Assembly: GCF_011764445.1 (NCBI RefSeq)
Contig: NZ_BLPG01000001.1
Location: forward strand, 3,534,001 to 3,598,000
Length of the DNA: 64,000 bases
Origin: Phytohabitans rumicis
GTDB taxonomy: Bacteria > Actinomycetota > Actinomycetes > Mycobacteriales > Micromonosporaceae
Direction of reading: 5' to 3'
The notes under the pieces were generated by a model, which was not told the DNA's origin, made no database searches, and saw only the letters and a program-made list of their open reading frames with translations. A program made the translations under genes and the position numbers. Positions 6,767-39,742 of this stretch are shown here, piece after piece. The stretch's first letter is position 1, and each line of letters begins with the position of its first letter.

Positions 6767-6823
6767 TGCAAGGAAGGGCACCTTGTTATCGCTTTTTGCA
6801 TAGCAAGGGTCCCCTCCTAACAC
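6767..6823. terminator. Family B hairpin repeat, copy 1 (convergent junction)
   Basis: The element begins TGCAAGGAAGGGCACC, has the loop CGCTTTTTGCA (reverse orientation of the family loop GCAAAAAGCG) and ends CCTCCTAACAC. The stem is imperfect. It lies two bases after the glycosyltransferase stop and just before the stop of the convergent QueA-like gene, a position suited to a bidirectional terminator. Confidence 0.65.
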
Positions 6824-37316: not shown

Positions 37317-39176
37317 ATGACCCCACCGCGCTCGCGCGGCCGGGCGGTACTGCGTCACCTCGCCGTACCCGCCCTCGCGCTGGCAGTAGTCGCCACGGTG
37401 CCGTTCAGTTCCGACGACTCCTCGAAGACCGCGCAGGCCGCGGCCTGGACGCCGATGTCGCCCGTCTCCGTCACCTACGGGGGTGGCCAGCACGGCGGGA
37501 CCGCCAAGGGCAACCTGCTCGGTTTCAACGACTTCCACGGCGCGATCGACCCGCCCACCGGCAGCGGCGGGCTGGTCAACGGCAACCCGGCCGGCGGCGT
37601 CGAATACCTGACCACCTGGCTCAAGAGGCTCCGCGCGGAGGCCGGCGCCGAAGGGCGCCAGTCGATCACCGTCGGGGCCGGCGACCTGGTCGGCGCCACG
37701 CCGCTGGTCAGCGCGGCCTTCCACGACGAGCCGTCCATCGAGCTGCTCAACAACGCGGGCCTGCAGGTCAGCTCCGTCGGAAACCACGAGTTCGACGAGG
37801 GTACGACGGAACTGGCGCGCCTGCAGCGGGGCGGCTGCCACCCGGTCGACGGTTGCCAGGACGGCGACGGCTTCAAGGGTGCGAAGTTCAAGTACCTGGC
37901 CGCCAACGTGGTCAAGAAAAGCACCGGGCTGCCGATCCTGCTGCCCGTGGACATCAAGCAGGTGGGCGGCGTACCGGTCGGCTTCGTCGGCATGACGCTG
38001 AAGGGCACCCCCTCGATCGTCAACCCGGCCGGCATCAGCACGGTCGAGTTCCGCGACGAGATCGAGACCGCCAACAAGTGGGCCGCGCTGCTGCGCCTCG
38101 CCGGCGTCAAGTCGATGGTCCTGCTGATCCACGAGGGTGGGGCCCAGTCGCCGCCACCCACGCCGCAGCCGGTCGACGGGTGCGCGAACTTCGCCGGCCC
38201 GATCACCAACATCGTGGCCGGCCTGCGGCCCGAGTTCGGCATCGTGGTCTCCGGCCACACGCACCGGTTCTACTCGTGCCAGCTGCCCAACTCCGCGGGC
38301 GCCCCGACGGTCGTCACCAGCGCCGGCAGCAACGGCGTCCTGGTGACCGACATCGACTTCACGCTGGACAAGCGCAGCGGCAAGTTCGCCGAGGTCGCCG
38401 CGCGCAACGTCATCGTGGAGAACGGCGTACGCAACCCCGACGGCACCTGGCAGATCGGCCCGGGCGGCGTGCCCGTGCGCAACCCCGACCTGGTGGACGC
38501 GAGCGCGAAGGTGATCGCCGACAAGTACCGGACCGCGGTCGCACCGATCGCCAACCGGGTGGTCGGCAAGATCACCGCCGACATCACCACGGCCACCACG
38601 GCCGCCGGTGAGAGCGCACTCGGCGACGTGATCGCGGACGCGCAGCTGGCGTACACGACGTCGGCGGCGGGTGCGCAGATCGCCCTGATGAACCCGGGTG
38701 GCATCCGGGCGCCGTTGACGTTCGCCAACTCGCCCGGCGGCGAGGCTCCCGGCGACGTCACGTACGGCGAGTGCTTCACGGTGCAGCCGTTCAACAACCT
38801 GGTGGCGACCCAGACCCTCACCGGCGCACTGCTCAAGGAGGTGCTGGAGCAGCAGTTCGTGGGCTTCGGCGGGCAGACGGTCCAGCGCATCCTGCAGGTC
38901 TCGGCCGGCTTCACGTACTCCTGGGACTCGACGCAGGCGCCCGGCTCGAAGGTCAGCAACCTGGCCCTGAACGGCGTGCCGATCGACCCGGCGGCGACGT
39001 ACCGGGTGACCACGAACGACTTCCTGGCCAACGGCGGCGACGGGTTCACCCGGCTCACCGCCGGCACCGACCGGGCCACCGCGCCCGGGTTCGACGTGGA
39101 CGCCCTGGTGGCGTACCTGGGCGCCGGCGCCCCGGTCGCCCCCGGACCGCAAAACCGCATCGCCAAGCTCGCCTGA
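37317..39176 (+). CDS. Secreted 5'-nucleotidase/UshA-type metallophosphatase
   Basis: ATG 37317 gives 619 residues with a Tat- or Sec-like signal (basic PPRSRGRAVLRH, then a hydrophobic stretch, cut near AQAAA). The N-terminal metallophosphoesterase domain has LLGFNDFHGAID, GNHEFDEG (about residue 158) and VVSGHTHRFYSC (about 315), holding a dimetal site. The C-terminal 5'-nucleotidase domain has GESALGDVIADAQL, NPGGIRAPL and TNDFLANGGDGF. It should release nucleosides and phosphate from extracellular nucleotides. It starts about 150 bases from the divergent helicase gene and ends at a family B hairpin. Confidence 0.93.
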   Translation: MTPPRSRGRAVLRHLAVPALALAVVATVPFSSDDSSKTAQAAAWTPMSPVSVTYGGGQHGGTAKGNLLGFNDFHGAIDPPTGSGGLVNGNPAGGVEYLTTWLKRLRAEAGAEGRQSITVGAGDLVGATPLVSAAFHDEPSIELLNNAGLQVSSVGNHEFDEGTTELARLQRGGCHPVDGCQDGDGFKGAKFKYLAANVVKKSTGLPILLPVDIKQVGGVPVGFVGMTLKGTPSIVNPAGISTVEFRDEIETANKWAALLRLAGVKSMVLLIHEGGAQSPPPTPQPVDGCANFAGPITNIVAGLRPEFGIVVSGHTHRFYSCQLPNSAGAPTVVTSAGSNGVLVTDIDFTLDKRSGKFAEVAARNVIVENGVRNPDGTWQIGPGGVPVRNPDLVDASAKVIADKYRTAVAPIANRVVGKITADITTATTAAGESALGDVIADAQLAYTTSAAGAQIALMNPGGIRAPLTFANSPGGEAPGDVTYGECFTVQPFNNLVATQTLTGALLKEVLEQQFVGFGGQTVQRILQVSAGFTYSWDSTQAPGSKVSNLALNGVPIDPAATYRVTTNDFLANGGDGFTRLTAGTDRATAPGFDVDALVAYLGAGAPVAPGPQNRIAKLA

Positions 39177-39179
39177 GCG

Positions 39180-39235
39180 GTTAGGAAGGGCCCCCTGCTA
39201 TGCAAAAAGTGATTGCAGGGGGCCCTTCCTTGCAC
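39180..39235. terminator. Family B hairpin repeat, copy 5
   Basis: GTTAGGAAGGGCCCCCTG ... CAGGGGGCCCTTCCTTGCAC with the loop GCAAAAAGTG. It follows the nucleotidase stop. Its last bases (TTGCAC, 39230-39235) double as the likely -35 box of the chorismate mutase leader promoter. Confidence 0.75.
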
Positions 39236-39259
39236 GACGGCGGGCGGCGCTGGCATACT
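39230..39259 (+). promoter_or_regulatory. Candidate promoter of the chorismate mutase leader
   Basis: TTGCAC (39230-39235), an 18-base spacer and CATACT (39254-39259) place the transcription start near 39266-39267, at the GTG of the leader peptide. The leader would then be leaderless. Confidence 0.55.
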
Positions 39260-39266
39260 TCAGCCC

Positions 39267-39335
39267 GTGGTTCAGCAGGTGCGGCGTTACTTTAGCTACG
39301 GCTCCGGGAGTCCGGCAGCCGTAGGTCGCGCCTGA
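39267..39335 (+). CDS. Leader peptide with Tyr-Phe-Ser-Tyr codons
   Basis: GTG 39267 to TGA 39333-39335 encodes 22 residues, VVQQVRRYFSYGSGSPAAVG followed by RA. Three of four consecutive codons (TAC TTT AGC TAC, 39288-39299) specify aromatic residues, and TTT is rare in DNA this rich in GC. The codons directly precede the left arm of a hairpin that overlaps an antiterminator pairing with the terminator at 39350-39380. This is how attenuator leader peptides are built. The downstream gene is chorismate mutase, the branch-point enzyme to Tyr and Phe. No expression evidence exists; the call rests on codon content and RNA structure. Confidence 0.7.
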   Translation: MVQQVRRYFSYGSGSPAAVGRA

Positions 39336-39380
39336 TCACAAGACCTACCAAAGCCCCGGTCTCCTGGAGTCCGGGGCTTT
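39296..39380 (+). promoter_or_regulatory. Transcription attenuator: pause hairpin, antiterminator and terminator
   Basis: Hairpin 1 pairs CTACGGCT (39296-39303) with AGCCGTAG (39317-39324), extended inside by CCGG/CCGG. The terminator pairs AAAGCCCCGG (39350-39359) perfectly with 39371-39380. CCGGGAGTCCGG (39304-39315) can instead pair with CCGGTCTCCTGG (39356-39367), 11 of 12 positions including one G-U. That pairing would break both hairpin 1 and the terminator. A ribosome stalled on the aromatic codons would cover the left arm of hairpin 1 and favour the antiterminator. A further 7-bp pairing, GTAGGTC (39321-39327) with 39342-39348, is possible. There is no T-run after the terminator stem. 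Confidence 0.7.
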
Positions 39381-39427
39381 CGTGCATCCGGGCTCCAGTG
39401 ACCGGGACCCACGACAGGGAGTACGCG

Positions 39428-39742
39428 ATGGCCACCGACGTGGTGGAGCAGCCCGGCAAGCCGGCCAACGGCCACGAGACGGGCACAGAGGCCCCAGACG
39501 CGGCCGAACGCATCATCGAGATACGGGAACGCATCGACGAGATCGACAGCGCCCTGATCGCGCTCTGGCAGGAGCGGGCGGCCCTGTCCCAGCAGGTCGG
39601 GGCGACCCGGGTGGCCTCGGGCGGCACCCGGCTCGTGCTGTCTCGCGAGCGGGAGATCCTGGACCGCTTCCGCAACGCCCTGGGCACCGACGGCACCCAA
39701 CTGGCCCTGCTCATCCTCCGCGCCGGCCGCGGCCCCCTCTGA
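39428..39742 (+). CDS. Chorismate mutase (AroQ type)
   Basis: A 104-residue protein from ATG 39428, with GGGA upstream. After a 25-residue polar N-terminus comes the AroQ helix core: [30 protein letters not shown], with the conserved Arg, Asp and Arg/Gln pattern, then LSREREILDRFRNALG and a final helix. It converts chorismate to prephenate, the first step to Phe and Tyr. Its small size fits the actinobacterial single-domain form, which in mycobacteria works together with DAHP synthase. Expression is probably controlled by the aromatic attenuator upstream. Its stop faces the end of the convergent transporter operon with a 22-base gap. Confidence 0.88.
   Translation: MATDVVEQPGKPANGHETGTEAPDAAERIIEIRERIDEIDSALIALWQERAALSQQVGATRVASGGTRLVLSREREILDRFRNALGTDGTQLALLILRAGRGPL

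Follow-up and report, generated by a model that had tools for sequence, protein, structure and literature searches.

The closest described counterpart of the regulatory region considered here is the aroR-aroF leader of Corynebacterium glutamicum (Neshat et al. 2014). This actinobacterial aromatic leader peptide contains the codons Phe-Tyr-Phe and, according to the available parts of the publications, responds to phenylalanine limitation and not to tyrosine (PMC11802643, PMC4046766). The comparison made here is by description only, and aroR controls the DAHP synthase gene aroF, whereas the leader described below precedes a chorismate mutase gene. A phenylalanine leader acting on chorismate mutase, there fused to prephenate dehydratase, is the pheL-pheA system of Escherichia coli, as summarized in the accessible portion of PMC11802643. 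In Mycobacterium tuberculosis, the upstream frame of ilvB1 likewise has regulatory codons and a terminator/antiterminator switch, with a terminated RNA of about 120 nt, but senses branched-chain amino acids (PMC13236596, partial text). An RNA-seq survey of Streptomyces lividans reported eight leaders (leuL1/2, trpL1/2, ilvL, thrL, metL, and alaL) which, like the leader studied here, precede amino-acid genes; most of them are leaderless and some lack a U-rich stretch. In the part of that survey available, none of the eight is assigned to phenylalanine, tyrosine, or chorismate mutase, tryptophan being the only aromatic amino acid represented (PMC8079986). An earlier comparison of Actinobacteria (Seliverstov et al. 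2005) found, in its accessible text, no conserved RNA structures upstream of the phenylalanine and tyrosine operons (PMC1262725). In the text excerpts covered by our full-text literature search, a leader upstream of chorismate mutase is not described for any actinobacterium, and an article on Actinoplanes (Wolf et al. 2017) might mention one.

The window analyzed here is a stretch of 64,000 nucleotides from Phytohabitans rumicis, a member of the Micromonosporaceae. It contains an AroQ-type chorismate mutase (CM) gene preceded by a short leader frame. The features of this region are as follows.

39184-39229, no strand assigned: palindromic repeat with arms 39184-39198 and 39215-39229; the TTGCA that follows gives part of the -35-like hexamer
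39230-39235, plus strand: -35-like hexamer TTGCAC, 18 nt before the -10-like hexamer; TTGCGC, TTGCAC, TTGCCA, and similar hexamers stand there in many relatives
39254-39259, plus strand: -10-like hexamer CATACT, ending 7 nt before the leader start codon
39267-39335, plus strand: leader frame MVQQVRRYFSYGSGSPAAVGRA*, 22 codons, from GTG at 39267 to TGA at 39333-39335, probably leaderless
39276-39334, plus strand: outer closing stem (39276-39285 with 39325-39334) around hairpin 1, found by folding; variation on its 5' side is apparent in other genera
39288-39299, plus strand: control codons Tyr-Phe(UUU)-Ser-Tyr (TAC TTT AGC TAC)
39296-39324, plus strand: hairpin 1, 12 pairs with one bulged base, -20.3 kcal/mol
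39304-39315, plus strand: 5' side of the outer antiterminator helix; 11 of 12 positions pair with 39356-39367
39321-39327, plus strand: 5' side of the inner antiterminator helix, with 97.5% of cells paired over 46 distinct rows
39342-39348, plus strand: 3' side of the inner antiterminator helix, partner of 39321-39327
39350-39380, plus strand: terminator hairpin and short tail (last arm bases TTT, then CG)
39356-39367, plus strand: 3' side of the outer antiterminator helix, overlapping the 5' arm and loop of the terminator
39428-39742, plus strand: CM gene, AroQ class, 104 aa (PF01817; NF005894/PRK07857; TIGR01808)

The CM product scores 39.8 bits against PF01817, 104.5 against NF005894 (cut-off 73), and 67.1 against TIGR01808 (cut-off 52.15). 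A preliminary description of this DNA had proposed that an aromatic-codon leader peptide and an attenuator control the gene, and the 22-codon frame with its Tyr-Phe-Ser-Tyr codons was recovered on recounting. A tight aromatic cluster occurs in 13 of the 853 short frames on both strands of the window, and only the 39267-39335 frame combines such a cluster with the promoter pattern. A search of the same genome for a second copy of the leader gave no match below E 1e-3 other than this locus and its reverse strand, and a pattern search upstream of the type II DAHP synthase gene of this genome found no similar leader. Between a UvrD/PcrA helicase gene and the CM leader lies a gene of the 5'-nucleotidase family (window positions 37317-39176), which by eye also precedes the CM leader in several relatives.

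The promoter-like pair had been pointed out previously, and the two hexamers, 18 nt apart, are indeed present; they are weak when compared with the E. coli consensus, and the same spacing recurs in many relatives. Since a scan of 39170-39440 for consensus promoters reported none, the putative promoter and terminator are proposed on the basis of conservation; a terminator scan of the same interval, which needs five T in eight positions, did not report the window terminator. In all 91 distinct CM leaders collected across the class, a -10-like hexamer lies 5-7 nt before the start codon (6 nt in 47, 7 nt in 43, and 5 nt in one), when any of 11 hand-listed hexamers and any spacing of 4-9 nt were allowed. 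For the 24 DAHP synthase leaders described below, the distance from the -10-like box is 6-8 nt in every case. The frame is probably translated from a leaderless transcript, which would begin at the leader start codon itself; the narrow spacing in the CM leaders is the best evidence for this.

The -35-like hexamer had also been attributed to a repeat family, and the copy of the repeat end GGGCCCTTCCTTGCA at 39220-39234 does supply its TTGCA. This end occurs nine times in the window with up to two mismatches (0.10 expected), in a dispersed palindromic repeat at 6767, 19065/19106, 21314, 28674/28714, 39220, and 60915/60956. The palindrome at 39184-39229 may serve as a terminator for the 5'-nucleotidase gene that precedes it.

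The three RNA structures read earlier from the sequence withstand recounting. Hairpin 1 has its 12 pairs and single bulge, the perfect terminator stem of 10 pairs is followed by a U-U mismatch and three more pairs (-22.1 kcal/mol in total), and the 11 of 12 pairing positions of the outer antiterminator helix are as described. Hairpin 1, the antiterminator, and the terminator are mutually exclusive by computation (pair counts, folds, and complementarity), as had been claimed. Missed in the earlier reading was the inner helix, 39321-39327 with 39342-39348, which crosses the leader stop codon and joins the outer helix in one long antiterminator spanning that codon. With both helices the antiterminator has -29.2 kcal/mol, and hairpin 1 with its closing stem has -36.6 kcal/mol. 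The fold of 39260-39400 has a z-score of -5.6, none of 200 shuffled sequences being as good. The U-tract behind the window terminator is short (TTTCG). No Rfam family (4227 families) matched the window at its gathering score; at E up to 10, the interval 39180-39440 gave 20 matches, all below their own gathering scores.

In the sequences compared, the leader, its codons, the hairpin, and the complementarities are conserved. Within the Micromonosporaceae, a CM gene is present in 148 of 150 genomes, and the leader covariance model R1, built from 47 leaders to which some of the tested genomes also contributed, matches 148 of 150. The same two genomes, 69% and 77% complete, lack both. All 145 genomes with both places listed have the R1 match on the CM strand, at a distance of 19-247 nt (median 75) before the gene, and three further genomes have an R1 place but no CM place among the matches listed. 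In the family alignment (47 leaders, 46 distinct), 97.7% of the cells of hairpin 1 and the terminator are paired, with 17 doubly compensated cells, a number reached in 0 of 500 shuffles; two further measures gave weaker results, the pairs with a double change being matched in 10 of 500 shuffles and the further pair types in 48 of 500. For instance, one pair at the terminator base is AU in 35 leaders, CG in five, UA in four, GC in one, and another combination in one, the two arms changing together. The longest T run in the eight bases after GGGGC is at least four in 28 of the 47 leaders, three in 14, and fewer in five. The antiterminator, paired in 95.5% of cells, barely varies; because its helices are nearly invariant, no covariation was detected within the family (one pair with a double change versus 0.9 in shuffles). 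Comparison with relatives, which the preliminary description had named as one way to check its reading, bears out the leader frame, the aromatic codons, the covariation of hairpin 1 and the terminator, and the complementarities, while the antiterminator is too invariant in the family for covariation.

Across the class, a search with NF005894 matched 115 of 246 genomes, 75 of them over the cut-off; the 50 places over the cut-off that were read (L061-L110) are part of a set of 110 CM loci (L001-L110), some of which come from the same genome twice. The leader was found at 102 of these loci, in 91 distinct versions, and no recognized leader was found at the other eight, one of which is at a contig end. 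The search required F-x-Y, so that the universal presence of Phe and Tyr is partly due to selection, while the choice of UUU over UUC is unselected. The peptides have clade-specific forms, namely FYFYYGSGSPAAVGRA in Micromonosporaceae, FLFTYGNRPTGCHGRAA in Streptomyces-type genomes (the S. qinglanensis locus L030 carries this type), RRFFYGYRPAVPVV in genomes of a putative Mycobacterium type, and PPFYGDRARSPLHR in family f17. Hairpin 1 covaries between families. Its lower part is paired in 88.5% of cells over the 91 leaders, which give 72 distinct rows. Doubly compensated cells number 67 (0 of 500 shuffles), and six of eight pairs show a double change (6 of 500 shuffles); the rows of f17 and a few others, shifted by one base, are mostly scored as unpaired in this count.

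The leader's own hairpin is more stable than shuffled versions (z below -1) in 90 of the 91 leaders. Complementarity between the second half of the leader and the region up to the terminator loop, compared with 300 shuffles per leader, exceeds its own shuffles (p<0.05) in 80 of 91; the shuffle controls leave the relatedness of the sequences in. By group, this holds for 46/47 Micromonosporaceae-type, 13/13 Streptomyces-type, 12/12 f17, and 5/7 other leaders (the f17 genome L099 being counted among these seven), and for only 4/12 Mycobacterium-type leaders. The p value of the window row, 0.027, is approximate, the automatic terminator boundary having been set too far 3'. Matches of R1 over the class (66 of 246 genomes at E<=0.001) were dropped as evidence, many of them being terminator-only or away from CM.

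The CM leaders of family f17 (L091-L098, L100, and L102-L104) are up to about 55 codons long and carry FYG near the end. Their downstream region matches the 5' arm of hairpin 1 (GGACCGGGC with GCCCGGTCC in L091), and the group has no obvious simple terminator and no clear U-tract. Given this match and the lack of a clear U-tract, the f17 switch may be different.

Every one of the 91 distinct CM leaders has a UUU codon one or two positions before its Tyr codon. Phe codons further upstream are UUC in 32 cases and UUU in 16, and in four genes of the window UUU accounts for one of 54 Phe codons. Position -3 is aromatic in 46 of the 47 family leaders, the upstream codons alternating between TTC, TTT, and TAC. 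In family f16, 14 stretches yielded nine CM leaders, four recognized by pattern and five picked out visually, with later confirmation in the DNA; no leader was found in the other five stretches, one of them at a contig end. The f16 leaders (e.g., MTHRTSVFSQP) retain UUU in 9/9 read, though most of their other aromatic codons are gone. Pfam assigns three of the downstream genes (L156, L157, and L162) to chorismate mutase type II, and the identity of the other six f16 CM loci is taken from NF005894 matches under the cut-off (22-31 bits against 73). Since UUU is fixed at the control position and is kept in f16 where most aromatics are lost, phenylalanine is likeliest the main signal, in line with the account of aroR in C. 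glutamicum (PMC11802643); the Tyr codons vary more. The fixed UUU may tune sensing, or may serve the RNA or DNA itself.

Leaderless-looking Phe/Tyr leaders (e.g., MQRNFWRFYGYRP... and MRTAWSFWYGDGP...) also occur before DAHP synthase genes in several actinobacterial families. They were found at 24 of the 30 best-scoring loci (L126-L135, L137, L138, L141-L143, L145-L149, L151, and L153-L155), the enzyme being identified by TIGR01361, with PF00793 checked for one locus. UUU is present in 22 of these 24 leaders. Trp codons near the control site occur in 22/24 DAHP synthase leaders versus 1/91 CM leaders (Fisher p 2.8e-20, for related sequences and with a DAHP synthase leader pattern that counted Trp as aromatic). 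The cleanest comparison is offered by nine f16 genomes with both leaders, where Trp is found in 9/9 DAHP synthase and 0/9 CM leaders. This split is the pattern expected if the codons sense the products of the controlled enzyme. We are evenly divided on the broader proposal that leaderless aromatic leaders control both CM and DAHP synthase throughout the class, with codons matching the products (Phe/Tyr for CM; Trp, Phe, and Tyr for DAHP synthase) and the fixed rare UUU beside hairpin 1 as a tuned sensing codon.

For the window itself, these comparisons strongly suggest that CM, the branch point to phenylalanine and tyrosine, is controlled by Phe/Tyr-responsive ribosome-mediated transcription attenuation via a leaderless leader peptide, and we hold this reading with high confidence. 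The attenuator would sense charged tRNA-Phe and probably tRNA-Tyr. When both amino acids are plentiful, the ribosome would reach the stop codon at 39333 and cover the region of the inner helix, so that the terminator at 39350-39380 could form. With Phe-tRNA in short supply, the ribosome would stall near 39288-39296, on top of the 5' arm of hairpin 1, leaving the bases from about 39304-39308 to 39327 free to pair with 39342-39367. This pairing would take place before the terminator's 3' arm has been transcribed, and transcription would enter the CM gene. If the leader is not translated at all, hairpin 1 with its closing stem would beat the antiterminator, giving termination by default. The transcription start, stalling, termination, and the amino-acid response are what we infer from the conserved features.

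Folds of the window RNA ending at 39367, that is, before the 3' arm of the terminator exists, are consistent with this scheme. RNA beginning at the leader start folds as hairpin 1 with no antiterminator, as it does when free from 39280 or earlier; RNA free from 39285 to 39308 forms the antiterminator, and RNA free from 39311 on does not. Hairpin 1 alone loses to the antiterminator, which already forms with the first free base at 39285 or 39296. Therefore hairpin 1 needs part of the closing stem, and the default state leans on that stem. Applied to the 47 leaders of the family, folding without masking yields hairpin 1 for 40 and the antiterminator for seven; if the first free base lies 9 nt beyond the Tyr codon's start, all 47 form the antiterminator, the 5' arm of hairpin 1 being absent by construction. 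A stalled ribosome is assumed to cover about 12 bases downstream of the A-site codon's first base. On that assumption, the antiterminator would be permitted by a ribosome stalled at Tyr 39288, Phe 39291, or Ser 39294, and a stall at Tyr 39297 is borderline.

The attenuation reading of the preliminary description is thus supported by comparison and refined in three respects: the signal is probably mainly phenylalanine, the antiterminator is longer by the inner helix, and the leader is probably leaderless. The CM leader would share its terminator/antiterminator logic with E. coli pheL-pheA, which by contrast is led by a Shine-Dalgarno sequence, is gammaproteobacterial and unrelated in sequence, and has Phe codons without the Tyr theme. 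It appears to be a known kind of attenuator that is unusually widespread and well conserved.

The same leader and codon sensing could be coupled to a downstream structure that acts by Rho-dependent termination or on CM translation instead of intrinsic termination, as the short U-tract in the window and the f17 group without a simple terminator would allow; some S. lividans leaders, too, are reported without a uridine stretch in the accessible part of PMC8079986. Translational control is weakly hinted at by the fold of 39267-39445, where the CM start codon is partly paired with 39349-39354 and the GGG in the probable ribosome-binding site is engaged in local pairing; most of 39413-39430 is unpaired in the same fold. 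Because the terminator arms covary inside the family, and a run of at least four T follows the stem core in 28/47 family leaders, we consider this variant unlikely.

Two other explanations were considered. The residues SPAAVGRA after the aromatics are nearly invariant in Micromonosporaceae and might act as a peptide, through nascent-peptide arrest or as a functional small protein. In other families, however, quite different residues stand in their place (NRPTGCHGRAA, YRPAVPVV, and DRARSPLHR), and double changes maintain the pairing of the hairpin, which makes a peptide function very improbable; nascent-peptide arrest was rejected, as the residues downstream of the aromatics are not conserved between families. 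The UUU fixed at one place is a regularity at the nucleotide level, as would be expected if TTTTAYGG and the palindrome formed a site bound by protein or RNA, or else a stable small RNA, with the aromatic reading a by-product. Yet the upstream codons switch between TTC, TTT, and TAC while staying aromatic (position -3 in 46/47 family leaders), the -10-like box keeps a narrow distance from the start codon, and Trp codons are common before the enzyme that also serves tryptophan and rare before the one that does not. We regard this as the least probable of the explanations, with hardly any chance of being correct.

If attenuation operates as proposed, expression at the Phe/Tyr branch point would be tied to charged tRNA in Micromonosporaceae, in Streptomyces-type and Mycobacterium-type genomes, and in other families, which bears on the aromatic precursors of natural products in those families. 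The step-matched codons and the fixed UUU make sensing directly testable by a few point mutations. The Actinoplanes work mentioned at the outset reportedly concerns the window's own family.

Finally, a further leader-like frame was noticed elsewhere in the same genome (L113, G000:C1, about 5141076-5141151, minus strand). The frame, MRSALVTTTPGSPGMPS, has three consecutive Thr codons and is followed by a GC-rich hairpin and then by a gene for a class II tRNA synthetase (PF00587; threonyl type by eye); a palindrome similar to the dispersed repeat of the window lies near it by eye. L113 resembles a Thr leader attenuator, and thrL-thrS, which the available part of PMC8079986 lists for S. lividans, is a comparable case.
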